From Mya arenaria (lineage: Eukaryota; Mollusca; Bivalvia; Myida; Myidae), in assembly GCF_026914265.1 (NCBI RefSeq), contig NC_069124.1, positions 74,648,765 through 74,712,764 on the forward strand: DNA of 64,000 bases, written 5' to 3'. Of the stretch, positions 12,342 to 38,171 are shown in pieces. How positions within the stretch are numbered: the stretch's first letter is position 1; the number at the start of each line of letters is the position of its first letter. The notes below the pieces were generated by a model. That model searched no databases. It was not told the DNA's origin and worked only from the letters and a program-made list of their open reading frames with translations. The position numbers were made by a program, and so were the translations under genes.

Positions 12342-12430
12342 GAACACGTATAATAACCAAATTATAAATAAATTATCGATCTTTGGAGAGGTATAAATGG
12401 TGAGTTTTCACACATTCACTGTTGTCTTGA

Positions 12431-13809
12431 TCAATATCCTCCTGGTCTGGGGCGGACCTGTCGGATAGGAAGGCCATGGTTTTGAAGACCACCACAAAAA
12501 CGCAGGGTGCAGATAGTCGGCTGGAAAAGACATTACTTATTCGTAAAAACGATTCATTAAGATAAAATGGTTTATGTATTATAAGTCAAAAATTCAATGA
12601 CGATGGCTTTCCTTTAAATGAAGTTACAGTCATGACTTAATGAAAATAAAATAAACTGACCTCATTTAAACGTATTAGGTAAAGAACCTTGTGTCAAATA
12701 CTCAAAATGTGAACCTACTAATGGCTTAACCGAATAACCAGCATGAATTATCACCAACTTAGTTAAACATTTTTTTTAGAATATTAATTCATTGATAAGT
12801 CTGAGCATAGCCAGAATCAACTTCAAAATTATGTTTAAAACAACATTATCCAGTAAAAGTCCGTTTTAATAAAACCGTCATTCATGATATGGTAAGGCCA
12901 ACGTACCTGTCCGTTAGATCCACAGGTACATGTGTTGCAACCATCACTGTAGCTCTGGCCGGGCCATACACGTCGACCAAGGTAGTCTGTGCAGTAACCT
13001 GCGAGTGATTGAACAGAAATATTAACAATTATTTTCCCATGTACGAAGGAGTTGCAGTGTCGTATGTAGGGAGTTTTCAAACGCATTTTCGAATTGTAGA
13101 AACATAGAAACTTAAGTGTGTGGCTTTTAGAGGCACTTATATTTACAAGTTGTTATTTCGAAAGTTAAAAATTATTACGATATATATTTGAAGTCAAAGA
13201 ATAGCGAGCAACATTGCCCAAGCTTTGAAATACGTACAAATTTATCACGTATACGTAAATATGTATATTTTACTTATCGTATTATAAGTAAATGTTCAAC
13301 TTACGTATTTGCGGATAATGTCTTCTAGGCAGGTAACTGGTTCTTGGCCCTGAACATGAGAAAAACAATGTAAACCTAAGCGAAAATAGTAGGTAGCCTT
13401 CTTTATAAAATAGCAAATCCTTAAATATATCAAACCAATTAAATATCGATAGAACTATTAAACAGGTGCTATATTACAAATATGACAGCATAAGCGAAAC
13501 ACGTTTAACAATTTTGTGTATTTGTAAACAATTGTTTTTATAGATTCAAAGATTAAAAGCTATGTTCTCGTGTTTTTCTTCAACAAAAATAGTTGATATT
13601 AATGAATTCCTCACAATATAGTAAAATGTACAAGCATCTTAATCAATACAAGATACAATTGATCTGCTAACAATATTTAAATCTGAAATCCTAATCCATC
13701 AATTAATGTTATTTCAAGAAAAAATAGCTTTTGTAGTTATCTACTTACACTGAGCCATTGATACGGCCACACAGCACACGAGCAGGCAGAGAACAGCTAA
13801 GGATTTCAT
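12431..13809 (-). CDS. Secreted pacifastin-like inhibitor peptide, copy A
   Basis: Four exons in transcript order: 13809-13749, 13349-13305, 12998-12907, 12520-12431, giving 95 residues. Residues 1-20 are a signal peptide (MKSLAVLCLLVCCVAVSMAQ). A 15-residue linker with YLPRRH follows, then the cysteine domain: Cys38, 56, 59, 61, 70, 75. CNTCTC, a Gly four residues after the fourth Cys, and CTLRFC match the pacifastin light-chain pattern C-N-x-C-x-C-x3-G-x4-C-T-x3-C; the first loop is longer (17 residues, normally 9-12). In locust PMP-C the reactive bond is Leu-Lys in CTLKAC, so Leu72 is the expected P1 here. The tail ends RPRPGGY. Synonymous third-base changes between copies fix the exon 2 frame. 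A single VWC-like domain is the main alternative. The inhibitor role is inferred. Confidence 0.88.
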
Positions 13810-13885
13810 CGTCGGAGGTGTTGAGTTCGTCAACGTTCAAATACAACCTAAAAGTCAAGTACTGATCATATGAAGACTTCACCAT

Positions 13886-13895
13886 GCCTATATAG
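13886..13895 (-). promoter_or_regulatory. TATA box of gene A
   Basis: CTATATAGGC on the gene strand, about 80 bases before the ATG. A CCAAT box (AGCCAAT, complement of 14032-14038) lies about 140 bases further upstream. The arrangement matches copies B to E. Confidence 0.7.
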
Positions 13896-15146
13896 CCATA
13901 ATTACGTTGACGAAAGAAAGTTAATCGATTAATTATAGTGGTTGCATTGACGTAGTGAAAATACGGACGTCTTTTTACCGCGTATGTGGCTTAAAGTCGC
14001 GCTTTGAAATAATACATACTTCTGAATTTTGATTGGCTTAAAGGGATACGACGTCGGCCGTGTACTATTGGTAAACGTTTAACAAGTACAACAAACTGCT
14101 TGGCTGATAATTTAAATGATAAATGACAGCCGACGCAGCGAGTCATAACATCGGTTTGCTTTGTGAATGATTAGTGAAATAATGAACTAACTGGTCTCTG
14201 TCATAACGTTTTACATCTTAGGCTAATTAGTAAACTGTCATTTTTTATTCAATCGCTAATGATCAGAACAGGTCTTTAAATGGGCATGTCATTGTATTTA
14301 GAATGTAACTCTTAATAATGTAAAAGGCTTTGTTATTTTTTATTATTTTATTTACATATTTTAGAAAGTTTGATCCAGAAAAGTAAATTTTTGTAACAAG
14401 TATTTTTTTTCGAACTAATTAAAATTAAAGGTTGAGTAGGTGTAGTACAATCAGGTTAAAACAAGGCCATACAAGAGAACAGGATGCAAGTACTGATAAG
14501 CCCATCAATGGGCTGCAGGTTAAAGGTTAATCAAAGATAAAACGATTGTTCAAAAAATATAATTCGTGTAAAAAGGAGTCAAAAAAAGAGAAAAGTAAAA
14601 CATTAAATGCATCAGGATTGGACCCGTGGTCCTCAAGGCCGGTGATTATAAACATCTTAAATCAATTCTTAACTTAAGTCGATTTCTTAACATGTTCATT
14701 GTCAAATTAAAGGAAATGTATAATGTTGTTAGTTTTTAAAGAATATATATTAAATAAAATCGATGAAGATAAAGTATATTAGATAATATTAAGTTATGAT
14801 ATCAAATAATCAGTGATGTACATAACATATGAAATTGACTTTAGGTAAGACATGACTTAAGATGTTTTATAAATACTGGCCATTGACATAATCCACTGCA
14901 TCATAACAGATTGATGCATTCGCACAGTTTAATGTAACATATAATCACAAATTAATCTATAATTGCGGAATATGTCAATATTGAATACTAACCTTTACTG
15001 TTGTATGCGAATCGAGCACATTTGTGAACTGAATTGTCCTTTTTGTTTCCAGGTAGTAGGGTTCTATGAAGCATTATTATAAACAAACTAAGTTGCCAAA
15101 CCGGATAATTTGGCTTTAAAAGATTGAAAAGCAATCAAATCATTTA
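13896..15146. other. Upstream region of gene A, otherwise empty
   Basis: Contains the CCAAT box (14032-14038) and a diverged version of the upstream sequence shared by the array. No exon or RNA gene was recognised beyond that. Confidence 0.5.
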
Positions 15147-15612
15147 GGGCGTTTTTGTTGATACCAAACCAGTTTCAGTTTTGGTGTCAATGGTTTCAGC
15201 AGTTTCGAACTCGGTTTTGACAGTTTGGCTTGAAGTTACAAATGAAAGGTTTTGTGTACAGTTTAAATAACATGGTGGAGCTAGTGCATGCAGTCATTAT
15301 TTCTTATTATAAATATAACCTTTATCATTTAGCTCATTTGCCCATTGTAAGGCATTGTTATCAAAAGGATTGAGTTTCAACAAAGGTGGTTGATCACATT
15401 CCGCCATGTTGGTTTCAAAGTAAACTAGTTTTCGGATGGAACGAACCGATGAAACCGCCTTCGGTAGGGGTTTCGATAGTTTCCAAACCGGTTTCGGTTT
15501 TCGTTAAAAACGATAAAACTGGTTTTGGTTTTATTTAAAACTGTAATAACAAATGCACAGTTCGTGAAACCGATATAAAACCGAAACCAGTTTATAACCA
15601 ACAAAAACACCC
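15147..15612. mobile_element. PIF/Harbinger-type MITE, 466 bp
   Basis: The ends are inverted repeats: GGGCGTTTTTGTTG on the left, CAACAAAAACACCC on the right. Both sides are flanked by TTA (15144-15146 and 15613-15615), the 3-bp target duplication typical of PIF/Harbinger. The interior is rich in AACCGG/GGTTTC-type sequence and codes for nothing. A diverged relative lies at about 28878-29320. Confidence 0.75.
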
Positions 15613-16089
15613 TTAATATCAACTCGTCTATTTTGAAGTTTCATCCCTATAATTGACTATTTGTATTAAAACAATTATTGAAAATAATGAATAATAGTGC
15701 ATACATTTGAAAACCACTGTTAAAACAACCAGTCAAATACACAATAACTTTTAAACCACATCTACCATTGCATTTATAAAGAGAGAAGAAAATTTAATTT
15801 CTGCATAAATATCCTTCAACTGGAGCGGATAAGATGACATTGTTACATTGTTTGCGACAATCCACAATATTAAAAACAAATATAAAAATGTTTAAAATTC
15901 AAGATAAGAGAGAAATTTCAAACGAAGATAGGTCTCATCGTAGGACCTTTATAATAATACGCTAACAAATATCATCGATATTGAACAATGACCTCATAAT
16001 GTATCCATTTAATTTTAGGCATTCTGTTCACTGTATTAAGTTGTTTGAAATCGGGATCAGACTACTGATCTACTGATCTACTGAAATAT

Positions 16090-17000
16090 CTCGTGTGTGT
16101 CCGGTTCAGATCGAATGCACATGCGTAAGCTTGTAATCACATTTAGTAACGACGGGCGTTGGGTACCACATATATCAACATCTTTTCAAAAGGCACGACA
16201 GAGGATCGGTACTATGAGGTCATTGAAGTTCAAACCAGATCGCGCTAGTCTCGAAATAATGTATATATTCTTCATTTGGCCCTTTCCTAAGTACTCGGAT
16301 GCTGTTTGGGACAACTGTTCATATGAATTAAAGGATAGTCTTGAAGCTTTTCAAAATGAGGCAGCTAGAATAATATGCGGGGCAACGAAGCTATTTAATA
16401 TTCAAAAGATTCTTTCTGATTTGGGTTGGGAAACGTTGACATAGAGACGAAGGAAACACAGACTTTCTTTTCTATTAAATGAATCACCACCTTTCTCCAA
16501 GCTATCTATCGGATATAATTCCGATCCAATGTCAAGATCGCTATCGCCTGCTTAATGCAAGTAACACTCCTTTTGTCATAGCAAGGAATTCTCTCTCTCA
16601 CCCTACACGTCATAGAAGAAGTTAATAGTTTTAGACATACACTGAACAAAAATATTCGCAAACCACTACCACACTACAATGTTGGCTGCAGAATTGGGCA
16701 GATTCTCCATACTTGCCCGCGACTTGGATGTAGTCCTCTTGGCTATGACCTACATCTCAAATCAATAGTTGACTCGGCTCTCTGTGAGTGTGGGTCAATT
16801 CAAACTTTAAACATTGCTTTATGGAGTGTAATAAATATAACACAATAATGGTTAATATGTTGTCTGGCATACCTTGTCTGCCAACAATAGACAACATTCT
16901 TCGTGGAAACACCTTACACTCGAGCAGAATAAAACTTTGTTTCTCATTGTTCACCAAAACAGTGTTGCCTCAAAACAAATGGGAACACATCAAGCCGCGC
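16090..17000 (+). mobile_element. LINE fragment: end of reverse transcriptase ORF
   Basis: One open stretch (about 16097-16441) reads like the C-terminal part of non-LTR reverse transcriptases: LVITFSNDGRWVPHI, a region ending AVWDNC, then EAARIICGATK. Further on, in shifted frames, come a glycine-leucine-rich segment, CECGS (about 16788) and KHCFMECNKYN (about 16812), the Cys/His motif of the LINE carboxy end. At least two frame changes and a stop separate the pieces, and the 5' part is missing. It is a dead 5'-truncated copy, probably of a Jockey/CR1-like clade. Confidence 0.8.
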
Positions 17001-19485
17001 GTGCAGTAAAATACTTTTTTCTCTTGTTTATCATTTCGTCCCGTTTTCGTCTTTTCTCTTTTCCAAATTTAAAAGCCATGCAACTTAAAGTTATATTTAC
17101 AAAATAAGTACCAAAGATCTAGTTAGATCTTGACTTATAGTTATATCTATTTATAACACCGTATGTTACTTAATAACAAAGGTTATTTATACAGTCTTGG
17201 CCAATCGCGGTACCGGCAACGCCGCATGCCCGAGAGTCGGTGTTACGATTCGGACTTGAACACATTCATGTTTTTTTTTGTTTCTTTCGTAACTTAGTTT
17301 ATACACTTCTATGAAATTAAAAGAGAAAAAATCATTTTTATACGTTCCACTGAACGTTGTTTACTGGCATCAAGAGGCCCACTAATGTTATTTATAGTTG
17401 ACGTCAAATAGTTCTCCTGAAAACGCGTTTAAACAGTAATTATTTAAATTAATTATATAATTTCATGAAGAAATATATATTGTTCGAGCTACATTAAAAT
17501 GCCTTTCTTTACTTTCTATAAACTGATTCGTGTGATTCATCTGATTCATGGGTTGTGCCAAATAGAATTTTCAAGCACGCCATGTTTCACCACAAATGCC
17601 TATCCTGCGTTAAAGGGAAAACAGTCATCCCTTACAGAGACTACGGAAGTAACAGTAACTATAACTTCTATCCAAGTGTTCCCAATTGCAAAGTCCATCT
17701 CACTGAAATCGTCACAATAACATCAATAATGCCATAAAAACTACATGGACAAGCAGAAATAAAAAAATCAAATATAAACACAATATTAGGACCCCAACGG
17801 CACTGAACGAGAGACACAAATGTATAAACACCACAAACAGCAATACACGCATCAAAATGACTATATCAATTAATGGTGTGATTACCGTGTTGGAACACAA
17901 GTTGACTGTGGAATTAAACTGGTTTATATGTGCATAACCTCAAACTTGTCACACCATTTATTCAAATAATACCATCTTAACGCAGAGCGCAAGGCAATGA
18001 AGCTACTGGTACCGAATAGTTTAAACGTCAATTGAATTGAAGAGGTCGAGGTTTGAACCCGGGTTTTTCCGCATCGGATGTATGTTTATATATCTATTAA
18101 AAAACCTGTAAGCCAACGCAAGCAATGCAATATTTAAAAAAAAATGTTTGCAACAGGGACCAATTGAGTGCTCTCATACGATTAAATATTTATGTATCGA
18201 AACAATTTGATCTGAGTACCTGTTTCTGTGCCTTTAAATGCCTTTATAAGGTCATGATACGTCCATTTTCAACAATATCTGAAGAAAACATGATAATTTA
18301 GTTCTTCTAGAAATGTATTGGTGTATCATTTTATCTCTTAATTCCAATTTTGTTTGAAACAGTATATCTTTATTTACCATTTTGACGATTCAACCAACAC
18401 TAGTTTACTAACAAAAAACAAGAACATTGTAACTGAGCAATAATGCTAATATTTCGCCATTTATATTTTGAATGATGGTCACGGGTCTAAAACTTGTAGA
18501 TTCCAAAGATTTAAAAAAAATCTCAGAGTTCGTATAAAAAAATGTAAGTTGGGATTTAATTAATTGAATTGTTTAAAGACGCATCGTTTGCAAGCTAGGA
18601 TCCTACAACCCTTGCTTAAACAAAATACAAACCAAAACTCAGTTCTAGAACTCTTTTAGATCTTGCAGAATAGTTCTTTGGAATTTAATCACTGTAATTG
18701 TCTTGACAAAATCCTGCTGTGTTGACGCCCTATCGTTTGCAATATATATGCAAAAAGCTACAAGCTGGGTTAAATTTTTGTCCGTAGCATTCAGTTTTAT
18801 AACTTTTTTAACATTTGAAAAAATCTTGGAAGCCAGAGTTAGGGACCTTGAGTACTTTAAATCTTCAACTATGGTCCAATAACATAGATCGTTTTTGAAA
18901 TTGTCTGAAAGACCTTGCATAGTTCGAGGACTTTAGTTCAAGAACATATTTAGTTACTTGCAAGGAACTCATTATTGATCAATAATAGTCAAATTATAAT
19001 CTACATATGATAAAACATATACTAAAAACATTCCCGCTAATGTTGGTCCTTAAATCATTAAAGAACCTGTCACTCTTTATATAAACTTTTAAATCATGTG
19101 CAACCAGTTTTTTTTTGTTCTCGTTCAGATCTGCATGCACATCTGTTAATCGCATGAGCGATATATGTATTAGCACAAATTACTGTCAAAAGTATACATA
19201 TGCATATGTTTATAAACTTTGTTAACGAGTTGTAATTAAAAACAATTAACTGCACTTGCTTAGATGACGCAAATTTGCAAACCGGTGAGTTTTCTTATCT
19301 CCGTTTTTAGTTTATCACCATAGATGCCAGATAGTGCCCGATGTAAACACCTGAAGTAATAGCGGGCATGAAATAATTGCCAAAAACTAAAACATTATGA
19401 ATTTGTTCATTTCTGTTAAGCATTTTTACACATAAAATCCATACTGGCTAAGGACCTATTTTCTGTCGAAAAAGGATTTTTCTTA
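17001..19485. other. Noncoding stretch before unit B
   Basis: AT-rich. No exon was recognised. A 91-codon minus-strand frame at 18645-18920 has no features I know and normal AT-rich composition. The sequence homologous to the start of later units begins at about 19486 (AAATAACTCGGGTATAT). Confidence 0.4.
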
Positions 19486-19565
19486 AATAACTCGGGTATA
19501 TCTGGATGAAATGTTGCAATTGAGTTTAGTTGTTTATCTGTTTTTCTTGGCAACGGTTTACAAAA

Positions 19566-19735
19566 GCCCACCAACCACCTCAGTAGACCTGACAGCATAT
19601 ATTAATGTCTCTAAAATCCTCTCGTTTCCAAGGTTATATCCGAGGTCCCACTCGTGATATGGGTTGTCTGCGTTCTTGCATCTCCAAGACAAAAGCAAAC
19701 TGTTTCTGCATGTTAGATATTACTGTATCGGACCC
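19566..19735 (+). pseudogene. Relic of receptor last exon and 3'UTR, unit B
   Basis: Aligns with 9693-9850 of the receptor. It shares CTCAGTAGACCTG from the last exon, then CCTCTCGTTTCCAAGG against CCTCTCATTTCCATGG, and CAAACTGTTTCTGCA. Only the tail of the last exon is present, with no upstream exon, so it is a passenger fragment of the duplicated segment. Confidence 0.75.
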
Positions 19736-19929
19736 AAAGGCAATGTTTTGACTTCACATTCCCAGGAGAATTATGAAGCAAGCCAATTTTTATGATAAGG
19801 TATAAATCAGAACATGATAAAGGTTTGATGATAATTTATTGCACTTAAAGACAAATCAAAGTATAAATAAAGTGAATTTCTTTGGTGAGGTATAAACGGT
19901 GAGTTTTCACACATTTACTGTTGCCTTGC

Positions 19930-21118
19930 TCAATATCCTCCTGCTCTAGGGCGGACCTGGTGGACGGGAAGACCATGGCTTGGAAGGACCTGGTGGACGG
20001 GAAGACCGTGACTTTGAACACCACCACAGAAACGCTGGGTGCAGTAGGTCGGCTTAAAAAGACAATATTCAATGAATAAATGAGATAAATAGTTATCACA
20101 TTTCAAAGATTATTTCAATGTCAGTGACAATATCATTCCATGCAGAAAATACTTCAAAACGGGCTGTAGAAACTGGCTATCAGAGAAATCAAGTCTATCA
20201 ACTGAAATACTTTAAGATGAAAAAAATGCTTTGAAGCCTACTTATAAAACACCTGTAAACACAATTGACATACAATGCCACAGATATAAACAATGCAACT
20301 TAATTTATTTCAAACTTTATTATAGCCAGCATCATGCAATTCCAAACGTTTATTTTAAGGCTACATAAAAAGGCATTCGTACGTTTCTTATAATTACGTC
20401 ATGAACATGGCCATATTGTTTTAATACACCACAATATAAACGTACCTGTCCGTAAGATCCACACATACATGTGTTGCAACCATCACTGTAACTCTGACCG
20501 GGACTCACAAGTCGGCCACGGTAGTCTGTGCAGTAACCTGCGAGTGTTTAAACAGATACATAACCACAAATATAGGAATCATTTGACTTCACTATTTAAG
20601 CACTTTTGAATGCTAGAAACTTTAATGTAAATCATAGGAACCTTTATTGAAATTGTACGTCAATGGTCATTAAGAGACTCATTTAATGTCAAAATAAAGT
20701 AGAATGTGCAGCCTTGACCAACCGGTGAAAATAACTACCAGTATATTATAAAATGATTTAACTTTAATCATATATTAAAAACTAACGTGTTTGAGGAAAG
20801 TGTCTTCTGGGCAGATAGTTGGTGTTTCCTTGCCCTGAAAAGCGAGAAAAAGGATTTATTTCAAACCGATCTATCTGGATGTAATTTTATTCAATAAAAA
20901 TATGCAATTCCATATCTAACAAAGTTATATAATAAATTTTAAAACATATGTTTAATATAACATTTTGCGCAACTTAATATGCGTAAACTTACAACAAATC
21001 TGAACATCAAAGAGCCTTAATTATATTCAAAATTACAATGCACTATTATTTACTTACATTGAGCCATCGATACGGCCACACAGCACACGAGAAGGCAGAC
21101 TACAGCGAAGGAGTTCAT
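19930..21118 (-). CDS. Secreted pacifastin-like inhibitor peptide, copy B
   Basis: Exons 21118-21058, 20834-20787, 20537-20446, 20052-19930; 107 residues. Signal peptide MNSFAVVCLLVCCVAVSMAQ, linker with NYLPRRHFPQT, then Cys39, 57, 60, 62, 71, 76 in the pacifastin spacing. The exon 3 product has RGRLVSPGQ where A and E have LGRRVWPGQ. The reactive loop is CTQRFC, so the expected P1 is Gln73. The tail carries two 11-residue repeats (each with SHGLPVHQV) before RPRAGGY. All splice sites are GT/AG; the exon 2 donor is GTTAGT. The exon 3 product is identical to those of C and D. Function is inferred as for copy A. Confidence 0.88.
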
Positions 21119-21205
21119 TGTCGGTGGTCGTAATACGTTATAATCGAACTAAACGTTTTAACAACAGTGTCAAAGTGAGAATGGTGACATGGCACTATCT
21201 GAAGT

Positions 21206-21215
21206 GCTTATATAG
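21206..21215 (-). promoter_or_regulatory. TATA box of gene B
   Basis: CTATATAAGC on the gene strand, 88-97 bases before the ATG. A CCAAT box (complement of 21343-21349) and a GTCGAC motif lie further upstream, as in C, D and E. Confidence 0.7.
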
Positions 21216-21602
21216 CATACGTTTGCCTGGATAAACATCGATAAGGGTAATAAATAAATGATAATAGTTCATGCGGTGTTAATTTTGACAGGTATGTGGT
21301 GAAAAGTTGCGTTACGAAAGGAAGAATATATCCTGAATTCTTATTGGCTGGAAACGAGACAGTGTCGACCGCAAAGTTAACGTAAAACGAATACTGATTG
21401 GTTCGTATACATAACTGACAGTCGATGCAGCGAATAACAAGTAAATATATGAATGTGGTTCCTGTCATAGCACGTAATACATCTATCATAAATGAACAGT
21501 ACGTCACTTAAAATATCGGTAGTTACGCACACCTGGCTACATCATATATCTATACACTGTTAAGGATAATACGATTTTTGAAGCACCTTATAATTAGTTT
21601 TG

Positions 21603-24720: not shown

Positions 24721-24890
24721 TCCCGGAAGAATTATAAAGCAAGCGAATGCTTATGATGAGGTATAAATCAGAGCATGATCAAGATTTAATGACAATTTAT
24801 TGGACATATAAACGAATCAAATTATAAATAAAGTGAATTTCTTTGGTGAGGTATAAATGGTGAGTGTTCACACATTCACTGTTGTCTTGA

Positions 24891-26001
24891 TCAATATCCT
24901 CCTGCTCTGGGGCGGACCTGTCGGATGGGAAGGCCATGGCTTGGAAGGACCTGGTGGACGGGAAGACCATGGCTTGGAAGACCACCACAGAAACGCTGGG
25001 TGCAGTAGGTCGGCTGAAAAAGACATTATTTATTGAATAAATGAAATACTATAGTTATCAAATTAGATATTATTGCAATAACAATGACAATACCGTTTCA
25101 TACAAGAAGAAAATAGTTTTACACAGATACAACAAGTGCAATTCGACTTATTCCAAATTTTATCAATGAGGTATAACTAAATTCATGAGTATGAGAATAG
25201 CCAGCATCATGCATCTTCCAAACGTTTATTTAAAAGCTATATAAATCAGCATTAGTACGTTTCTTATAAAACCGTCAATCACATTACCATATTATATTTA
25301 TTACCACAATATAAACGTACCTGTCCGTAAGATCCACACATACATGTGTTGCAACCATCACTGTAGCTCTGGCCGGGACTCACAAGTCGGCCACGGTAGT
25401 CTGTGCAGTAACCTGCGAGTGTTTAAACAGATACATTAACACAAATATGGCTACATGTAGGATTTTTTTCAAGATCTTTTATCTTCACTGTTTACGCACC
25501 TTTGAATACTAGAAACGTTTATGTAAATCAGAGGAACCTTTATTGAAACTTGTAAGTCAATGGTGATGTAGAGACTCATTAAATGGTGAAAATGACTAAC
25601 AGTTTACTATGAAATGGTTTAAAATTTATTTCATATATATTAAACATACGTGTTTGAGGAAAGTGTCTTCTAGGCAGATAATTGGTGTTTCCTTGCCCTG
25701 AAAAGCGAGAAAGGGGTGTATTTCAAAGCGAACTTTCTTTATAAAATCACAAACTTTATGTTATGTATTCATTAAAAATATACAATTTCATATTTAACAA
25801 AGTTACATCAAAAATTATAAAACATATGTATAATATAACATGCTGCGCAAGTTAATTGGCGTAAAAAATGTACAAAACAAATTTGAACATCTAAGTGCTT
25901 TAACTGTATTCAAAATTACATTGCACTATTATTTACTTACATTGAGCCATTGATACGGCCACACAGCACACGAGAAGACAGAGTACAGCGAACGTGTTCA
26001 T
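24891..26001 (-). CDS. Secreted pacifastin-like inhibitor peptide, copy C
   Basis: Exons 26001-25941, 25697-25650, 25412-25321, 25013-24891; 107 residues. Signal peptide MNTFAVLCLLVCCVAVSMAQ, linker WQGNTNYLPRRHFPQT, then six cysteines at the same positions as B. The exon 3 product equals those of B and D (RGRLVSPGQ, CNTCMC). The reactive loop is CTQRFC, expected P1 Gln73. The tail has two 11-residue repeats, the second changed to HGLPIRQV, before RPRAGGY. No disabling change is seen. The TATA box is at 26090-26099. Confidence 0.88.
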
Positions 26002-26089
26002 TGTCGGTGGTGTTTATTATGTTCTATTCGAACTAAACGTTTTAACAACAGTGTCAAAGTGAGAGTGGTAACATGGTACTACATGAAGT

Positions 26090-26099
26090 GCTTATATAG
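26090..26099 (-). promoter_or_regulatory. TATA box of gene C
   Basis: CTATATAAGC on the gene strand, about 90 bases before the ATG. The CCAAT box is the complement of 26230-26236, followed upstream by GTCGAC. Confidence 0.7.
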
Positions 26100-27999
26100 C
26101 CATAGTTTGCCTGGATGAGCATCGATGGATAGTAATAAATAAATGAGTATACATGCGGTGTTAATTTTGACAGCGTACGTGGTAAAAAGTTGCGTTACGA
26201 AATGAAGAATATTTTAATCCTGAATTCTAATTGGCTGGAAACGAGACAACGTCGACCAACTGCTTATCGTAAAACAACTACTGATTGGCTCGTATACATA
26301 ACTGACAGTCGATGCAGCAAATGACAAGTAAATTTATGAATGTGGGCCTTGTCACAGCACGTAATACATCTATCATTAATGAACAGTACGTCACTTGAAA
26401 TATCGGTAGTAACACACCATTAGCTTCACCATATATCTATAGATTGTTAAGGATAAAACGATTTGTTGAAGCACTTTATAATTAGTTTTGTTAAATTGAA
26501 AAGGGAGATGGTTATTATCCAAAAGTCACATAAAGATCATAGACTTGGTACGACTTATGTTTACACTTTACATACGAATAGAATAACGGAATTCCAAAAA
26601 ATAGTTTGAGACTTTCTTACAAATGATTTTAATCCTTAGTTATGTTATGCCTATATGCTAAAATATCATGTTATATTCACTGCTGTTACCAGCAATGCGT
26701 TGAAAATATCAGTTTCTATATTTCCACTACTCGTTTAGATTTCGGTTGCGTTCACTATGCCGGTTTGTACAAATTTGGAGCTATGTAAAATGTCGTTTAG
26801 ACGTGTCCGTACAATTTTCTTATAAACGCCAATTAAATTGATGCGTTCTTAAACGTTGGCATACAAGAAGCCGATTATTTGTTAAATTTCAAGATCGAAA
26901 TTTATTTCACACTTAATCATAGAAATAATGTTTTCTTCTCGCGAAAACATTGCGTTCTGTGGTCACTCGCTACTAAATCAACAAGTGTTCAATAGTCAAC
27001 TTTTAACACTATAACCTTTATTTGGTACATACATTTTCTGCAATTTTATGGTTACATTAGTGAATCAGATCCGTTATTCTTTACATGTCAAAAATTCCGA
27101 TTGTGTATACTACAAATATGCAAACTGCTTTGCCTTATATAAATTTTTACAATTGACTAAACAAGAGCTGTGTGTATTTGTTGAATTAAGGAATCCAACC
27201 CACAAATGTGTCAATATACCACCTACTATTTTCGTATCATGTGAAAGCGTTTCATGTGCAGTAAAAGCAATGTAAGGACTTTACCAAAATTATTGACAGA
27301 AGTGTTTTTACGGATTGCAAATAACACACATTACGTCCAATTTCGGTTGACGTTTAAAACAAATACAAATGACATAACTGTATGTATGATGTACTATCGG
27401 TAATTTATTCTTCATATAAGTAATCAAATGCATTTTAAATGATGTCAAAATTATATACAATGAGGTTACTAGGCATCAAAATTGAACGATAAGAATAACG
27501 GAGCTTTCGGAGGGCTAGCTTATTTGTAAGTCGGGCCGAGTCGGGCCGTTTTTGAATGTTTTCTTTAGAAAATATGTTCGCGCAGTACATCAACTATGTT
27601 TAGATTTCATAAGAACTACAATCCTCATCATAATAACATAGCTCTGCTTAAAATTATGCAAAGCTATAAGAGAGGTGTCAGATTTGAACTATAATTTAGC
27701 AAAACAGCATTGACCTGACACATTCCAACAGCATTCCTCATTTGTTCTTCGTAATTAATGTATTCGCAAAATCATAGCTACTGTGCATAAAACTGTTAGA
27801 ATAAGGAGCAGACATCGAGTCTAAGTAACTTTGTTTTTATCCAACCATAGCACTAAACTTGCCCTTAAAGCATGATAGGCAACAAGTTTCAACAAAAAAT
27901 GCATGCAAATGTTTCAACATTTTTTTTCGGAATAAACAGAGAACTTTTCCTTAAACCAAAGGACCCAAAACGTAATATTCAGGACTCACTAGCAGCCCT

Positions 28000-28877: not shown

Positions 28878-29320
28878 GGGCGATTTTGTTTGTAATTTGT
28901 TTTGGTTTTATATTGGTTTAACGAACTGTGTACTTGCTGTAACAGTTTCAAATTTAATAAAATCCCGTGTTATCGCTTGTTTTACGAAAACCGAACCTGG
29001 TTTTTGAAACTATCAAAACCCGCTGGCCGTTTCGTCGGTTCGTTCCATCCGCAAACAAGCTTACATTGAAAAAAGAACAACATGACGGACAGTGATCCAA
29101 CATGTGTGTTGAAACACCATTTAGTTAAAATAGGCAAACGACCATCTGCGGTATCATAGTTTTGAAGAAAATTAGAAGTAATACCATGCAGAATGCTACG
29201 TGCAGAAGCTCCAACATATTGTTGAAGCTGTACACTTACTTCAAGCTAAACTTTCAAAACAAATGAAACCAATGAAACCCTTCAAACAAAAACTGATATT
29301 AGTTTGGTATCAACAAAATC
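28878..29320. mobile_element. Older copy of the 15147-15612 MITE family
   Basis: The left end GGGCGATTTTGTTTG and the right end CAACAAAATCGC are inverted. The interior shares CGGTTCGTTCCATCCG with the reverse strand of the first element (CGGATGGAACGAACCG). The flanks no longer show a clear TTA duplication, so it is older or damaged at one end. Confidence 0.55.
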
Positions 29321-31040
29321 GCATTTGCCCATTCCTAATCTAGGGGCAAACTGGTAAACAGTTCAGGTATTTATGATTTCCAGTAAGCCTGTTTTATTTA
29401 AGTTAGATGTTGTCCTATTCACGGATGCATACTAACACGATCAATTCACTACCTATTTTTCATTATAGGTCAATCCTCGGTACATTTATGTAAAAGTGCG
29501 CGGAACATTACTGTAATTATGCACATGTGACAGTAAACAAGAATACGAATATACATTAAATTACATGTCCGGGGTGCGTGTTTTTATTCATTGGTTTAAT
29601 ATTATTCATTATATAATAGCTTCTCATGTTCATTTATTCATCCTTAAGGACTTAAAGAAATATAGTAACTCTTTTACATTTTTGGGATGTAAAAATCAAA
29701 TGTCCTTGCGAAGTTTAGATATTTTTCAAAACATAACAGTGATAATTTATTATATATCACACATGTTTATTTGTACTTTCACCTTCACTTTACTTTTCCA
29801 CTGGTGACCATTGAGCAGAGAAGAAATATTCCTGAAGAGCCAATATACTTTTAAACAGTGCTTACATTTCGATGGGCTAAGCTGTTGAAAACTATAAAGC
29901 TTAGATAACCGAAACGTAATGGCGAAATAGATATAAAATCCTGTTTTTTATAAGAACACATAAACATTCTGTGAAAATTTATACACTCTTAATTCTTCGT
30001 GTGTATAGTTATAGTCTTATGTCCGAGTGAAAAGAAACAAATATGAAAACATCTTATTCCATAGATTCTAGTCAAACTGGATCAAATGATGTTAAACATT
30101 TATTTTGCTGGGATTTTATACTTATGATTGAAGTAATTTACATTGTGCAGGAGCACTCAAAAAAAATCTGTAGTTACAATGCAGTTAACTGTTTCAATCG
30201 TCCTATTTTTTGTTATAAAGAACCTTAAAGAAAATAAAATAACCGCAAAACTGTAGCGTTATGGTTTTTTAATCAAACGACATCATTCTAAAACTTTTCA
30301 TGATTGAAGATCTTAAAGTAAAGCTTTATCACGTATATTGTTTTTGTTATTTTACCTGATCTTAAATATAAATGTTACATTTGATTTTTTTGATATGTTA
30401 AATAAGGTATGGTGTCCAGAGTTATGGAACGATGCTGCACCCTGTCCATTTTGCTATCACATCTCTTTCCTCGTGTAAAGCAACATGTGCATCGTTCTGC
30501 CTTCGTAAAATTAAATTATATAGATAATTATATATGTCTTAAGTTCTGATTAAAATTTATATTAAGACCATAAATACATTTATCCTGACAAATCGGTCCA
30601 ATAACAAGGTGCCGGGTAAATTTAAGTTTATTAGGATAGTTGACCGTGTGATGTTTTTCTACAGTCAGTTGATCATGTAATCGCGAAAACGGTCTGCTTT
30701 TCTATTCTGAAATTTCAGGGTAAAAGCACAATTTTTTTTAAATAACTCGGGATATACTGAAATTTGAATGAAATTTCTCATGGAGAAAGTGAGTCCCTGA
30801 TTTTAAAATCAGTATGATAAAATACATAATGTTTGTTTATTTTTAGAGCGAATACACATGTCAAACTTACATGTACTCAGTAAACCAATAATTTGCCGAT
30901 TTGAGGTAAATGTTGAGTATGTGAAAATACACAATTTGATTGATTGCATTTTTTTAGTTACTCTGTCCAGTCGAGAATTTTCGGATAAAATGTTTCCATT
31001 TTCTTTAGTACTATATCTGTTGTTCTTGAGAACAATTTCC

Positions 31041-31230
31041 GCAGGCCAACAAACCACCTCAATAGACCCGGCAGTAAATATGTATGTCTCATAATATCCT
31101 CTCTTTTCCGAGGTTATATCCGAAGTCTCACTCGTGACATGGGTTGTCTGCGTTCTTGCATCCCAAACAGCAAACTGTTGCTGCTTGTTAGCCATAACTG
31201 TATTGTTTCCAAAGGGAATGTTGGGACTAC
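31041..31230 (+). pseudogene. Relic of receptor last exon and 3'UTR, unit D
   Basis: Nearly the same as the unit C relic: CCTCAATAGACCCGGCAG, TATGTCTCATAATATCCTC, CTGCGTTCTTGCATC. It lies about 80 bases before the poly(A) signal of gene D. Confidence 0.75.
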
Positions 31231-31404
31231 GCATTCCCGGAAGAATTATGAAGCAAGCGAATTCTTAGGATGAAGTATAAATCAGAGCATGATAAAGATT
31301 TGATGACAATTTATTGCACATATAAACGAATCAAATTATAAATAAAGTGAAATTCTTTGATGAGGTATAAATTGTGAGTGTTCACACATTCACTGTTGTC
31401 TTGA

Positions 31405-32582
31405 TCAATATCCTCCTGCTCTAGGGCGGACCTGGTGGACGGTAGAACCATGGCTTGGAAGACCACCACAGAAACGCCTGGTGCAGTAGGTTGGCTGGAA
31501 AATACATTGTTTAATGAATAAATGAGAAACAAAAGTAATCACATTTTAAAGAATATTGCAATAGCAATGACAATACCGTTTCATGCACTAAGAAAATAGT
31601 TTAACAAACGTGTTGTAGAAAAAGGCAATGTGAGGGAAACCGAATCTATCAACTGAAACAATTTATAATGAAAACATGTTCTGAAGTCTAATTAAAAAAA
31701 ACGGTAAACATAGTTGAAACAAAATGACACAGATACCAAAAATCCAATTCAACTAATTCCAAAATGTATTTATGAGGTATAACTAAAGTCATGAGTATGA
31801 GAATAGCCAGCACCAAAAAGTTATTTAAAAGCTACATAAATCAGCATCAGTACGTTTCTTATACAACCGTCAATCACATGACCATATTATATTTAGTACC
31901 AAAATATAAACGTACCTGTCCGTAAGATCCACACATACATGTGTTGCAACCATCACTGTAGCTCTGGCCGGGACTCACAAGTCGGCCACGGTAGTCTGTG
32001 CAGTAACCTGCGAGTGATTGAACAGAAATATTAACACAAAGATGGCTACATGTATGTATTTTTTCTTGATATTTTGGCTTCACTATGTACGCACTTTTAA
32101 ATGCTAGAAACGTTAATGTAAATCAGAGGAACCTTTATTGAAACTTGTACGTCAATAGTGGTGTAGAGACTCATTAAATGGTGAAAACAGTTTACTATGA
32201 AATGGTTTAAAAACTCATATATAACAAACTTACGTGTCTGGGGAAAGTGTCTTCTAGGCAGATAGTTGGTGTTTCCCTGCCCTGAAAAGCGAGAAAAGGA
32301 ATATATTTCAAAGCTAACTTTCTTTCAAAAATCACAAACTGCTTGTAATTTTATTTAAAAAAGATACAGTTAAATACTTAACAAAGTTGTATTTTAAATT
32401 CTAAATCATATGTATAATAAAACATGCTGCACAAGTTCGTTGGCGTAAAAATGCACAACAAATCTGAACATCTAAGTGCCATAGTTATATTTAAAATGGC
32501 ATTGCAATATTAGTTACTTACATTGAGCCATCGATACGGCCACACAGCACACGAGAAGGCAGAGTACAGCGAAGGAGTTCAT
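31405..32582 (-). CDS. Secreted pacifastin-like inhibitor peptide, copy D
   Basis: Exons 32582-32522, 32281-32234, 32007-31916, 31494-31405; 96 residues. Signal peptide MNSFAVLCLLVCCVAVSMAQ, linker WQGNTNYLPRRHFPQT, then the pacifastin-type six cysteines. The exon 3 product equals those of B and C, but the reactive loop in exon 4 is CTRRFC, as in E, giving expected P1 Arg73. The tail has one repeat only, altered to SHGSTVHQV, before RPRAGGY. Exon 3 and exon 4 thus side with different copies, which hints at gene conversion. It is intact, with TATA box at 32671-32680. Confidence 0.88.
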
Positions 32583-32670
32583 TGTCGGTGGTGTTAAGTT
32601 AGTTTAAGCTCAAAACTACGTTTAAACAACAGTGGCCAAATGAGTATGCTAATATGGCACTTCATGAAAG

Positions 32671-32680
32671 GCTTATATAG
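32671..32680 (-). promoter_or_regulatory. TATA box of gene D
   Basis: CTATATAAGC on the gene strand, about 90 bases before the ATG. The CCAAT box is the complement of 32814-32820. Confidence 0.7.
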
Positions 32681-33092
32681 CCGTAGTTGAGCGTATGGAT
32701 GAGCATCTGTGAATAGTAATAAATTAATTATAATTCATGTGATGTTTATTTCGTCAGCGTACGTGGTGAAAAGTTGCATAACGAAATGAAGAATATTTTA
32801 ATTCTAAATTCTAATTGGCTGGAAATGAGACAGCGTCGACCGCAAACTTTACGTAAAGGAATACTGATTGGCCCGTTTATACATCTAACAGTCGATGCAG
32901 AGAATGACAAGTAAGTATATGAATGTGGTCCCTGTTAAAGAACGTGATACATCTATCATAAGTGAACGGTACGTCATTCAGATTATTGGTAATCATGTTC
33001 ATATTAAAAGTACATTTAGCTAAACTACATCTCTATAGTTTGTAAGGGATAATATGATATGTGAAAGCACGACTGTATTAATTACTTGTTAA

Positions 33093-33384
33093 AGGCCTAG
33101 TTTAAGGAATGTTTGGCATGATAATCCCCTGCTGTGCATATACTGCTTATTGCACTGGTGTTACAGTAGGGGCCAATTTCCTGTGTATTCGTTTATTGGC
33201 TCGGGCCATTTAGGGTCCAACAACAATAATAAAACAACCCCAATTGCACAGCAGGATACTCAGATTGGAGATCTGATAATACAATTAGGCAATAAGATTA
33301 AGATCAATTAACAGAGGTTGTGTACAAATACACAGTTTTGGCGGGGGGGGGGGGGGTCACTTAAAGAAGGCCTAAACTAGGCCT
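33093..33384. mobile_element. MITE with TTAA target duplication, 292 bp
   Basis: The ends AGGCCTAGTTTA and TAAACTAGGCCT are inverted repeats, and both sides are flanked by TTAA (33089-33092 and 33385-33388). Unit C has the matching empty site with one TTAA at 26491-26494. TTAA duplication suggests a piggyBac-type mobiliser. The interior holds a run of about 14 G (near 33341-33355) and no ORF. Confidence 0.75.
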
Positions 33385-33388
33385 TTAA

Positions 33389-35590
33389 ATGGAAACAAGG
33401 AGGTGGCTATTATCCGAAAGGGACATTAGGACCATCGCCTTGGTACAACTAATGTTAACACAGGAATAACGGTAAACCAAAAATAGTTTCTTTCTTCATA
33501 ACGATTATAATCTTTATTTATGTTATGCCTATATGCTGAAATAGTATGTAATTTTCACTGCTGTTACTATCAACGCGTTGAAAATATCAGTTTCGATATT
33601 TTCACTACTCGTCTAGATAGATGGCCGCGATGTGCAACAATAGGTATCGGGTACCTGATACCGGATAACATTCAGAGATTAAATATATATGGAGTGTATC
33701 GTTTCGGAATATAATACTATTCTTCATAGTGCAGATTGCTCACACAATAATTTTGTGAATAAAATGTTAACGATGTTCACTAATGTAGCTAATATTTAGA
33801 AGCACTTCAAATTTTAATGATTGCAAATTTGATGAAAACGGACTGATTTTGTGTGACCGAAAAAAGATGAATATGCCTATATTTGAAATAAAGAAAAATG
33901 TTGATTACAGAAAAAGAATGCATGACATAGAAAATTTAGGAAAATGTAAACCTCGAGAGATCCGGAAGCTTTTTAAGGTAAAAACTTCCAGGGTTTAAAT
34001 GAACATATTTAGTTTAGTCAATCCATATCATTAGTGTCACCAACATAATATAATTTCGGATGCTCAATTCGGATTTTGATAAGGGCTTTCTACAACCGAT
34101 GCTTTTTTTTTACTTTATTTTTTTTAATTCAAACTTCTATTTTTGAAAATAAAAGATAATACGTCTTTTTTGTCAATAAAATCAAATGTTTTGATATTTT
34201 TTTTATCGAAATGCATTATGGTTAAAGATATACAAATATGAAATATAAGGAAAAACACATAGCGACATGCATCCAAAAGTCAAATCTTGTGTAAAATCAA
34301 TGTCTTCATATTCTGATTTCTTTAGTTAAGGAGAAGTTATGTCTCCTTTGTTTACTTTATTTATTTTGTTTATTTGTAACAGATCCTGAGATGTATTAAC
34401 AAAATGATATTAATTCTGGTCTGCACTTGCATGACATTCTTTTAATAGTGTTATTATTTGCTAGTTACAGGGTCATTGTAGGCAAATCTCCTGAAGAAAT
34501 TCAAATTCAATTAAAATAACTTTATCGAGTGCATGTGGACTACAGGTAAAAATGATATGGTTTTTTTCGAAAAGAGGCGGGCTTTAGCCTAACGAAAGAT
34601 GGACTTATAGTGGCCAGGCAAAGAAGTGGTTAACGATTTTTATTATGTAGTTTATGTGTTTAATTATACTGATAATTTAAGAGTGAACTAGGAACACTTG
34701 TTGGAAAAGCACTTTTTCGTTCAAGATTGTAACCACTGACAATACTATTAAAAAAGTTTAAACCCAAACTGTGTATTATAGTGCACTAAAGATTATCGCA
34801 GTTAGATTCATAATGATAAAAAGATGTTAGATGATTTGGGTTATGGCCACGTCCTTGAGAATGTTCTGAATAGCGATGTACATTATCCATTTAAGTTTTC
34901 AGAAGTATTTTATATTGTTAAATATCAAGATCTAAATTTATTTCACAGCTCTGTGCGCGCTGACGTTTGATTTGGAAGTGACAGCGGGTTAAAATGTTAA
35001 AACAATGAAAAAATGAAATTGTTATTTCAATGTTGAAAACAGTAGCATTTTAATTACACTAACAAATCTCTATAAGTCACGAAAATGCATATCATAAATT
35101 GTTTTCATTCAGGATGCTCTTATAAGAAATAATATGTTTTCATTTTAATGCTTTTTTCGAAGGCATTTTGGTTTTTAGAATGATTGGTTAGTGTATTCCA
35201 AGCACGTGAATAATCATCAGATATTAAATTTGACACTTCATCAGACTGGAATACCTTTAGAAAATAAAACAAATGCGAGCTTTTGATTCCCGGTGACCAT
35301 TTACTATTATCATCTTTTGTATTATTTGAAACGGTTTATGTGAAGAAAAATGAAATATATTCAGAATATTATAACAATCAAGTTTTGGCCTTTACAGATC
35401 GCCTCTATGTAGTCCCACTGCGGCACGATCAATGTCGGGTTATGTCTATTAGTCCCCTCGTATTCAGAATGTCCCAAATGAGCTGCGGAAGAGTGGGCGT
35501 GCAAATTTAATTTAATTGACTGACTCCACGTTTTTTAACAACAAAATCAAGTGTTAGGGTTCAAATGCACACTCGGGACGTTATAATTTA
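33389..35590. other. Upstream part of unit D and junction to unit E
   Basis: Homologous to unit B and C upstream regions in places (for example ACTACTCGTCTAGAT near 33604, GTGCGCGCTGACGTTTGAT near 34954). No exon or RNA gene was recognised. Confidence 0.5.
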
Positions 35591-35594
35591 TATG

Positions 35595-35740
35595 GTTCTG
35601 GACGAACATACATCTGTCTGAAAATATCCTCTCATTTTGATGGTGCTTAACGGAGTCTTACACTGCATGAGTGTTGTCTGCGTTCTTGCCTCCCAATAGC
35701 AAAACAAACTGTTTCTGCAAGGTCAGTATTACTGTGGTAT
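35595..35740 (+). pseudogene. Relic of receptor last exon and 3'UTR, unit E
   Basis: CATCTGTCTGAAAATATCCT compares with the receptor GTCTGTCTGAAAATGTCCT. It then shares CATTTTGATGGTGCT-like sequence, TCTGCGTTCTTGCCTCCCAA and CAAACTGTTTCTGCA. It is closer to the receptor than the B to D relics are, so unit E may represent an earlier duplication. Confidence 0.75.
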
Positions 35741-35754
35741 ACGAACGGAAGAAT

Positions 35755-36270
35755 TTTGCCATTGCACCTTCCAAAACAATTTTGGACCAAAGAATGAATA
35801 TAATTGGCGATAAGAAGAAAAATGTGATTGAAATTTCCCAGAAACATTTGGATCAAAGAAAGAGTTTATCTCGCGATTAGAAGAATAATGTTACTGAACA
35901 TTCCCAAAACATTTGGATCAAAGAAAGAGTATATCTGGCGATTAGGAGAATAATGTGACTGAACATTCCCAAAACATTTGGATCAAAGAAAGAGTATATC
36001 TGGCGATTAGGAGAATAATGTGACTGAACATTCCCAGAAACATTTGGATCAAAGAAAGAGTATATCTCGCGATTAGGAGAATAATGTGACTGAACAGTCA
36101 CAGAAACATTGGGATCAAAGAAAGAGGATACCTCGCGATTAGGAGAATAATGTGACAGAACATTCCCAGAAATATTGGGACAAAAGAAAGAGTTTATCTC
36201 GCGATTATGAGAATAATGTGACTGAACAGTCCCAGAAACATATTGGGACCAAAGAAAGAGTATATCTCAT
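35755..36270. repeat. Minisatellite, unit about 64-65 bp, about 8 copies
   Basis: The unit contains GAATAATGTGACTGAACA, ACATTTGGATCAAAGAAAG and TCGCGATTAG. It arises directly after the receptor 3'UTR relic of unit E. Open frames across it are repeat artefacts. Confidence 0.9.
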
Positions 36271-36896
36271 ATCATATCATTGTCCTACACATATTTGTAA
36301 GGACTTTCTTCAAGATGTGTTTTGTATTAGTGTGCCTTTCACCAGAGAAATATACACCATTCAATGATAATACATGTTATTCTGTATATCTTTTTTATCA
36401 TATGTTCGTGTTTGATAAAACATTTTTAGATATTATTGTATGCAAGAAATGTAGACTGTTTGACAAGTACTGATAGTTTATATCATGTCGAAGTATTAGG
36501 AATGGAATAATAAACTGTGTATATGGTGGAATGAATGGAAATAGAAACACAGTTCATGCTCTCAACTGACATATGCCATAAATATAATCTATATATCGAT
36601 AAAGTCACTAGTGTTTAGATGCTGATTATAATATGTCGAACTGTCATTTGAAAACATACACTTATATGTAATACACTAATCCAGACGTTACCACGTGTGA
36701 CCCTTCTTTAAGCTTTGCAGAATATGCAATAGAAGAATTATAAAGCGAACGATTTCCTATAGATATGTGTAATTCATAACAAGATATACATTTGATTAAA
36801 ATTTATTGCACACGTATAATAATCAAATTATAAATAAATTATGAATCTTTGTAGAGGTATAAATGGTGATTTTTCACACATTCACTGTTGTCTTGA

Positions 36897-38171
36897 TCAA
36901 TATCCTCCTGCTCTGGGGCGGACCTGTCGGATGGGAAGGCCATGGCCTGGAATGACCTGGTGGACGGGAAGACCATGGCTTGGAAGACCAGCACAGAAAC
37001 GCCTGGTGCAGGAGGTCGGCTGAAAAATACATTATTTATTGATTGAATGAGATGCAAATAGTTATCGTATTTTAACTATGGTTACAATATCAATGATAAC
37101 AGCTGGTTACAATATCAATGATATTAGCATTCATTGAAAGAAAAAAGTTACTCAACACAGCCTGTAAGAACAGGCAACGTAATAAGAATTGAGTCGATCA
37201 AAAGTCTATGTCTCAAAAGAAAATAGATTAATATGTATAAGGCGGGTGCACACACAAACTTTTGTTCATAATTATATATCTTATTAAATGACAGATGTGA
37301 CAAGACAAGCATACCTGTCCGTAAGGTCCACAGACGCATGTGTTGCAACCATCACTGTAGCTCTGGCCGGGCCATACACGTCGACCAAGGTAGTTTGTGC
37401 AGTAACCTGCGTGTGTTTAAATACATTTGCAAATTAACAAAAAAAATATTTGGTGGATTTTCTGAAACATTTGGTTTAACCATTCATGCACTTGCATGAC
37501 GATATATACATATACTGAATCGTGCAATCTTGACCAACCGTAATTTCGTAAAAAATGTTAAAAATATTACTTCGTATATTACAAACTTACGTGTTTGAAG
37601 AACGTGTCTTCTGGGCAGATAGTTTTGGTTTCCTGACCCTGAAAAGCGAGAAAAGCGATATATGACAAAGTAAAAAGTGTGTGTAGCTTTCTTGATATAG
37701 CTACAAAGTTCTTGTAAATACATTTATCAAATATACATTTTTATAGTAAAATAGTTCTGATATTTATTATATTACTAAATAGCACGTATATTATAATAAA
37801 TCATGATGAACAAATTAACTCATGTTCGAAATTGTACAACATATCTACACTGGCATTTATAAAAACATTCGTTTTGAAAAAAACAACTTTTGTAGGTCAA
37901 TAATTGTTGTCGATTAATTTCAAACAAGCGTTTGAATTGCATGCTATAAGTTTATTCGAACACAATATGCAGAAAACATAGCTAAGCGTCTAAATCATAT
38001 TTTGAATTGACTTGCAATAACATCAGGTGCGAACATCTCATACAGAAAACTTAAGTACGTGTACATGCTTTGATTATAATTAAAACTTCATTGCAATTTT
38101 ATCTACTTACATTGAGCCATTGATACGGCCACACAGCACACGAGAAGGCAGAGAACAGCTAAGGATTTCAT
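36897..38171 (-). CDS. Secreted pacifastin-like inhibitor peptide, copy E
   Basis: Exons 38171-38111, 37638-37591, 37406-37315, 37019-36897; 107 residues. Signal peptide MKSLAVLCLLVCCVAVSMAQ is identical to copy A. Linker WSGNQNYLPRRHVLQT. The cysteine domain has LGRRVWPGQ like A, and CNTCVC. The reactive loop is CTRRFC with expected P1 Arg73. The tail has two 11-residue repeats (SHGLPVHQV, GHGLPIRQV) before RPRAGGY. It is the outermost copy and, with A, keeps the sequence type that differs from the inner three. Function is inferred as for A. Confidence 0.88.

Follow-up and report, generated by a model that had tools for sequence, protein, structure and literature searches.

Structure of the array

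Five pacifastin-type genes, copies A to E, lie side by side on the minus strand of the window, by which we mean the whole 64-kb stretch of DNA that was analysed. A six-frame scan of the window for C-T-x-[KR]-x-C gave five matches, every one on the minus strand: CTLRFC at 12494 (A), CTQRFC at 20026 (B) and 24987 (C), and CTRRFC at 31468 (D) and 36993 (E). Position 12431 is the end of the last exon of copy A, and 37019 is the start of the last exon of copy E. The spliced reading frame is open in all five copies, each of which has four exons, and all introns are GT-AG. The exon order is the same throughout: predicted signal peptide, short linker, scaffold carrying Cys1 to Cys4, and Cys5-Cys6 followed by a His/Pro/Gly tail. 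Each putative mature protein contains six Cys after the signal peptide and then ends at the stop. Exon 1 ends in phase 1, and exon 3 is entered in phase 1 and left in phase 0 (copy A). The pacifastin domain is thus interrupted by a phase-0 intron between Cys4 and Cys5, and the reactive site is encoded by a separate exon; this intron is a new detail. Every copy has a polyadenylation signal, AATAAA, at +89 beyond the stop. The TATA-like sequence GCTATATA occurs five times on the genes' strand in the 64 kb, once 87–99 bases upstream of each ATG, and three times on the opposite strand. Whole-genome searches returned these five as the closely similar copies, with no further close copy found elsewhere in the genome. 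The features of each copy are listed below.

13749..13809, minus, copy A exon 1, signal peptide, ending in phase 1
13305..13349, minus, copy A exon 2, linker containing LPRRH
12907..12998, minus, copy A exon 3, scaffold Cys1-Cys4, phase 1 in and phase 0 out
12431..12520, minus, copy A exon 4, CTLRFC, tail and stop
12503..12505, minus, copy A P1 codon CTG (Leu)
13889..13896, minus, copy A TATA-like box GCTATATA, 87 upstream of ATG
12336..12341, minus, copy A AATAAA polyadenylation signal
21058..21118, minus, copy B exon 1, signal peptide
20787..20834, minus, copy B exon 2, linker
20446..20537, minus, copy B exon 3, scaffold Cys1-Cys4
19930..20052, minus, copy B exon 4, CTQRFC, two-unit tail and stop
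20035..20037, minus, copy B P1 codon CAG (Gln)
21209..21216, minus, copy B TATA-like box
19835..19840, minus, copy B AATAAA
25941..26001, minus, copy C exon 1, signal peptide
25650..25697, minus, copy C exon 2, linker
25321..25412, minus, copy C exon 3, scaffold Cys1-Cys4
24891..25013, minus, copy C exon 4, CTQRFC, two-unit tail and stop
24996..24998, minus, copy C P1 codon CAG (Gln)
26093..26100, minus, copy C TATA-like box
24796..24801, minus, copy C AATAAA
32522..32582, minus, copy D exon 1, signal peptide
32234..32281, minus, copy D exon 2, linker
31916..32007, minus, copy D exon 3, scaffold Cys1-Cys4
31405..31494, minus, copy D exon 4, CTRRFC, one-unit tail and stop
31477..31479, minus, copy D P1 codon AGG (Arg)
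32674..32681, minus, copy D TATA-like box
31310..31315, minus, copy D AATAAA
38111..38171, minus, copy E exon 1, signal peptide
37591..37638, minus, copy E exon 2, linker
37315..37406, minus, copy E exon 3, scaffold Cys1-Cys4
36897..37019, minus, copy E exon 4, CTRRFC, two-unit tail and stop
37002..37004, minus, copy E P1 codon AGG (Arg)
38262..38269, minus, copy E TATA-like box
36802..36807, minus, copy E AATAAA

Two other gene models were considered and rejected. Splicing exon 1 directly to exon 3 would leave an extra Cys in the mature protein, which the conserved exon 2 removes. In exon 4, a +1 frame runs on beyond the stop in every copy, which would allow dual coding. It closes far sooner in A and E than in the other three copies, however, and base conservation within the array drops at AATAAA, so the extended frame was read as untranslated region.

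Domain family

Spliced proteins of three of the five copies were submitted to Pfam (A, C and E; the domains of B and D equal that of C except at P1 in D). All three matched Pacifastin_I (PF05375), with scores of 40.8 (A), 34.8 (C) and 36.9 bits (E) against a cut-off of 27.9. No von Willebrand factor type C (VWC) family was present among the Pfam hits listed to E 10 for these copies, a list from which HMMER filters drop many weak hits. When the genome was searched unspliced with the PF05375 profile, none of the 21 matches fell inside the window, most likely because the Cys4-Cys5 intron splits the domain; the spliced copies pass. Searches with the families of abalone egg lysin (PF01303) and molluscan haemocyanin (PF14830), run with no positive control, yielded no match.

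All five copies conform to Cys2-Asn-x-Cys3-x-Cys4-x2-3-Gly-x3-6-Cys5-Thr-x3-Cys6, the consensus pattern given for pacifastins in a 2009 survey (PMC2689174), and each carries the P2 Thr, the Asn that follows Cys2 and the Gly of the Cys4-Cys5 loop. The Cys1-Cys2 spacing is 17 residues in every copy, outside the 9–12 of the published consensus (PMC2689174), and the copies were therefore not placed in the conventional arthropod pacifastin class. A long-hairpin, 'Ancestral' pacifastin-like class has been described with 13–20 residues between these Cys (PMC13388995, 2026), a range that includes both the 17 of the window and the 16–19 of the genome's other domains. Judged by these sequence features, the copies are pacifastin-like, single-domain members of the long N-terminal hairpin class. 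The 17-residue spacing, lying beyond the conventional range, also counts against reading the genes as inhibitors.

Variability of the reactive-site loop

The initial annotation held that P1 differs between copies while the rest of the loop is fixed. The scan and the codon coordinates confirm Leu, Gln, Gln, Arg and Arg at P1 in A to E, and Thr, Arg and Phe are identical in all five. P4, the residue just before Cys5, also varies (I, Y, Y, Y, S), but as it is not part of the Cys5-Cys6 loop it leaves the claim of a fixed loop intact. With copy A as query, a 30-residue match to locust PMP-C was obtained with no gaps (E 1.8e-6) and with Leu on Leu, which bears out the equation of the variable residue with P1 of the locust inhibitors. 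That this residue sets specificity agrees with the survey, according to which P1 chiefly determines specificity in the members studied (PMC2689174). Among the 33 non-Cys domain columns of the five copies, P1 has the highest pairwise diversity, and P4 is one of the six three-state columns among 107 aligned over the whole protein.

Variation of this kind at P1 is already familiar in the pacifastin family. The suggestion that Gln at P1 is unusual did not hold up: the survey counts acidic or amide residues there in 13% of catalogued domains, their effect being unknown in 2009 (PMC2689174), and among 36 other domain sequences sampled from the genome, 16 have E, Q or D at P1, five of them Gln.

On balance, we lean toward reading this tandem array of five intact genes as encoding small secreted standard-mechanism (canonical) serine protease inhibitors with specificities set by P1. 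The Cys5-Thr-P1-Arg-Phe-Cys6 loop, held by two disulfides, would sit in the protease active site, with the P1 side chain occupying the S1 pocket. D and E, with Arg at P1, would prefer trypsin-like enzymes, and A, with Leu, chymotrypsin-like enzymes; B and C, with Gln, may have another target or a weaker one.

The copies could instead be extracellular-matrix or biomineral modules with a pacifastin/VWC-type fold and no protease inhibition, the exposed loop varying since P1 is unconstrained; we regard this as rather unlikely. To our knowledge, the His/Pro/Gly tail is unlike those of assayed inhibitors, which would suit a matrix role. The long N-terminal hairpin class is associated with adhesion and biomineral modules (PMC13388995), and a limpet shell-matrix protein has been annotated 'VWC/pacifastin' (PMC4094399). 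However, the consensus P2 Thr and Asn after Cys2 (PMC2689174) are fixed, as are P1' and P2' within the array. With P1 the one variable position of the loop, contact with an S1 pocket is a better fit than free drift. The window genes are also solitary and single-domain, like 67.4% of the long-hairpin class (PMC13388995).

Selection and paralogue clusters

An excess of change at the P1 codon had been expected. By parsimony, replacement changes per codon were 2.0 at P1 and 0.57 in the rest, a weak indication of such an excess, but P4 reached 2.25, and the replacement:silent ratio at P1 (8:4) did not differ from that elsewhere (55:39; Fisher p = 0.76). This similarity of ratios also accords with the matrix-module alternative. 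Whole-gene pairwise dN/dS was 0.17–0.81, below 1 in all 10 pairs. Values above 1 appeared in a few single segments with very few sites (tail: A-C 1.26, D-E 1.50, A-E 2.71; linker: B-E 4.57). Within the genome's own paralogues, replacement:silent counts (parsimony and Nei-Gojobori) gave no sign of positive selection.

These results could also mean that the proteins are inhibitors whose P1 differences arose by near-neutral turnover following duplication, with functional Arg copies and weak or spare Leu and Gln copies. In the codon table, CTG, CAG and AGG are each one base away from CGG, so few single-base changes would be enough; the non-significant replacement excess at P1 and the gene-wide dN/dS below 1 point the same way. 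Against this, the 40-residue domain of B and C differs from that of D in amino acid sequence only at P1 despite 1.5–3.5 silent changes (Nei-Gojobori), which indicates that the rest of the domain is constrained, and variability at P1 and P4 was seen again, modestly, in other clusters of the genome. We consider such turnover unlikely.

The cluster test used 17 of the 36 other domain rows (five IIa, six IIb, six III), selected as same-length paralogue groups. P1 ranked first of 33 columns for diversity in the window cluster, was tied top in IIb (2 of 32), and was mid-ranked in IIa (15 of 30) and III (11 of 30). Combined over clusters, p was 0.007 for diversity ranks (0.05 without the window) and 0.012 for parsimony counts (0.039 without the window). 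The corresponding values for P4, 0.0036 and 0.040, are exploratory, as P4 was chosen after looking. Variability at P1 and P4 thus recurs modestly in other paralogue clusters. One IIb row carries an internal stop, and the affected column was set aside; two cluster-II hits were dropped (L048 and L050, both without Cys6 and L050 also without Cys1), both with Arg at P1. The 19 rows outside the test include C12 multi-domain runs and a C4 paralogue pair that retains Lys at P1 in both members, with differences at P1' and P2'. Thr is missing at P2 in three of the 36 rows, two of which also have no Asn after Cys2.

Under the inhibitor reading, a common scaffold would have been retained while P1 and P4 diversified, as in some of the other clusters. 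The genealogy of the reactive-site exon differs from that of the flanking segments, which suggests gene conversion. Conversion may have shuffled exon 4, with P1, P4 and the tail, among conserved scaffolds to give an exchangeable-specificity inhibitor repertoire under selection at P1 and P4, though we think this improbable.

Should the copies inhibit different enzymes, the array would form a natural series of three P1 residues on one scaffold, in which B/C versus D is a single-residue comparison inside the domain. It would allow the effect of Gln at P1, not yet known according to the 2009 survey (PMC2689174), to be tested directly. Differing targets would also make a case for inhibitor-repertoire diversification in the long-hairpin class.

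Comparison with known systems

The window domains share with locust PMP-C (1gl1, 1pmc), SGPI-2 and SGPI-1 the spacing between the PG motif and Cys6, the CNTC core and the Gly of the Cys4-Cys5 loop. The CT-P1-basic-x-C loop is likewise common to them, and PMP-C also has Leu at P1. In contrast, Cys1 in the window lies eight residues further upstream (17, not 9, residues to Cys2). Locust pacifastin precursors encode several domains, whereas each window gene comprises one domain, a linker and a tail. Insect domains are generally encoded within a single exon (PMC2689174), while those of the window are split between Cys4 and Cys5. Trichoplax tapp-1 likewise has two exons per domain, but it is one gene of 42 domains in which each exon carries three Cys, rather than four plus two Cys in single-domain genes (PMC2689174). 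The 'Ancestral' domains resemble ours in their Cys1-Cys2 spacing and in a highly variable P1-P1' that includes Gln; the available text of that paper names none of the window pairs L-R, Q-R and R-R (PMC13388995). Within the genome, other pacifastin-like exons form clusters on C3 (42–44 Mb) and C5 (21.7–22.0 Mb), with further domains on C12, C7, C4 and C15. They share the long hairpin and a variable P1, but each holds the whole domain in a single open frame, and at P1' 21 of 23 domains have Met, Ile or Lys and two have Arg, whereas all five window copies have Arg there.

Five putative inhibitor genes differing at the predicted reactive-site residue

Scanning all six frames of the 64 kb window for C-T-x-[KR]-x-C gave five matches, located where the initial annotation had put them; all were on the minus strand, one in each of the five pacifastin-type inhibitor genes, A to E. 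At the predicted reactive-site residue (P1), A carried Leu, B and C carried Gln, and D and E carried Arg, as the initial annotation had read it, and the remaining loop residues (Thr, Arg and Phe) were invariant in 5/5 copies. The limits of that finding (12431-37019) coincided exactly with exon borders. The observation and the family assignment were both correct, and the finding is of an ordinary kind. Spliced A, C and E scored 40.8, 34.8 and 36.9 bits against Pacifastin_I (cut-off 27.9), and the only other family listed in these searches was FnI_RECK, below threshold, for A and C. In a gapless 30-residue alignment (E 1.8e-6), the Leu of A fell on the Leu of the locust inhibitor PMP-C.

Each copy had a complete four-exon gene model with intron phases 1, 1 and 0 in order. 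Exon 1 encodes the signal peptide (MKSLAVLCLLVCCVAVSMAQ and close variants), exon 2 a linker (45-48 bases, including LPRRH), exon 3 the scaffold (92 bases, Cys1-Cys4), and the last exon Cys5-Cys6 followed by a tail, built from one or two units of 11 residues similar to LPSHGLPVHQV, and GGY plus stop. Frames were open in 5/5 copies, and AATAAA started 89 bases past the stop in 5/5. GCTATATA occurred five times on the array strand of the window, with each occurrence 87-99 bases upstream of a different start codon of the array, and three times on the opposite strand; a CCAAT motif lay 221-238 bases upstream of each start codon. Judged by these features, and by exons that are better conserved than introns (see below), A to E look like working genes.

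Genome-wide (1.216 Gb, 18 contigs), the scaffold-exon search gave 12 matches among the best candidates scored: five close ones (84-100% identity), every one a window copy, and seven at no more than 65%. Last-exon DNA gave five matches among the best candidates scored, again all window copies.

The array was flanked by a receptor-like gene and a kinesin motor gene. Neighboring features were as follows:

3597-6771, plus strand: exons, by eye, of a gene like ionotropic glutamate receptors, with the motif SYTANLAAF
16085-16441, plus strand, between A and B: by eye, a fragment like the reverse transcriptase of a non-LTR retrotransposon
39879-42844: long tandem array, period near 94 bases (self-BLAST offsets)
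about 50356-60264, minus strand: exons of a kinesin motor gene (by eye)

Elsewhere in the genome, two pacifastin-like exon runs in opposite orientation on contig C12 (35.488-35.492 and 35.875-35.879 Mb) had almost identical domain sequences. Among cluster-II copies (C3:43.58-43.62 Mb), L044 carried an internal stop and L048 and L050 had lost Cys6; these three are possibly decayed members.

Replacement changes at P1 and P4

P1 was the most diverse of 33 non-Cys columns in the window. Of three other paralogue clusters, it tied at rank 2 of 32 in one and stood at ranks 11 of 30 and 15 of 30 in the remaining two, rank being the number of columns with at least equal diversity; a fifth paralogue pair, on C4, with Lys at P1 in both members, was left out. 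As the hypothesis came from the window, p values are also given without it. When one random non-Cys column was drawn per cluster, the combined P1 diversity had p = 0.0068 with the window and 0.0505 without, and parsimony counts of P1 replacement changes gave p = 0.012 and 0.039, respectively. P4, the residue just before Cys5, which was picked after looking, behaved similarly (p = 0.0036 and 0.040). Replacement:silent counts were 8:4 at P1, 9:2 at P4 and 55:39 elsewhere, with no significant difference from the rest at P1 (p = 0.76) or P4 (p = 0.20). Replacement changes are thus likely to be moderately in excess at both P1 and P4, without positive selection being demonstrated. The dN/dS excess that the initial annotation anticipated at the P1 codon is weakly supported: its replacement:silent ratio resembles that of the rest.

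Genealogy of the reactive-site exon

Two-state informative sites were counted for or against the grouping A+E vs B+C+D. This grouping was backed at 3/4 sites in exon 1, 9/19 in intron 1, 1/3 in exon 2, 13/22 in intron 2, 7/7 in exon 3, 18/25 in intron 3, 67/84 downstream and 32/79 in the 600 bases upstream. In exon 4 it was backed at 0/7, four of the seven lying inside the tail repeat unit, where alignment is ambiguous, and a fifth immediately after it (exon 4 vs intron 3 plus downstream, Fisher p = 5.6e-5). Consecutive dissenting sites numbered 11 at most, in a run that spanned exon 4 (p = 0.0003 over the gene by shuffling); with the five sites in or just after the repeat unit removed, a run of six still surrounded the reactive site (p = 0.008 locally, 0.053 over the gene). 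D and E shared AGG and an intron base nine before the acceptor, but the sites at distances of 20 and 4 bases from that acceptor grouped the copies differently. The exon-4 site pattern and the dissenting run suggest, but do not prove, gene conversion of the reactive-site exon.

Comparing A or E with any other copy, exon identity was 0.64-0.97 and intron identity 0.51-0.68, the introns aligning poorly. Between A and E (12336-13809 vs 36802-38171), identity was 0.97 in exon 1, 0.94 in exon 3 and 0.94 in the 3' UTR, with just 0.64 in exon 2 and hardly alignable introns (0.51-0.59). For this pair, the contrast may reflect conversion limited to exons, constraint on silent sites or a fast turnover of indels.

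Comparison with known pacifastin domains

Variable P1 in pacifastin domains is not new; the freshest parts here are the split between scaffold and reactive-site exons and the odd genealogy of the latter. A 2009 survey reports 17 different P1 residues, 13% acidic or amide with unknown effect (PMC2689174), and a 2026 survey reports 80 P1-P1' pairs, listing Gln-Lys as one of the dominant pairs of molluscs and non-animals, though also as enriched in the arthropod class (PMC13388995). In the same genome beyond the window, a sample (not a census) of 36 distinct domain sequences had as P1 residues E (10), L (8), K (6), Q (5, one of them in a sequence with an internal stop), S (3), R (2), Y (1) and D (1). 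With Gln in 5/36 and acidic or amide P1 at 13% in the 2009 survey, the suggestion that Gln is unusual at this position does not hold.

By analogy, A to E would be secreted canonical inhibitors with the target set by P1: the Arg copies (D, E) would act on trypsin-like enzymes and the Leu copy (A) on chymotrypsin-like ones, the target of the Gln copies (B, C) being left unspecified. This chain from sequence to specificity draws on studied arthropod members, and the window copies belong to the long-hairpin class; the main rival is a matrix role instead of protease inhibition, a limpet shell-matrix protein being annotated 'VWC/pacifastin' (PMC4094399). Cys1-Cys2 spans 17 residues in the window copies, compared with 9-12 in the published consensus (PMC2689174), and domains with 13-20 residues there are described in the 2026 survey as a widespread 'Ancestral' class (PMC13388995).
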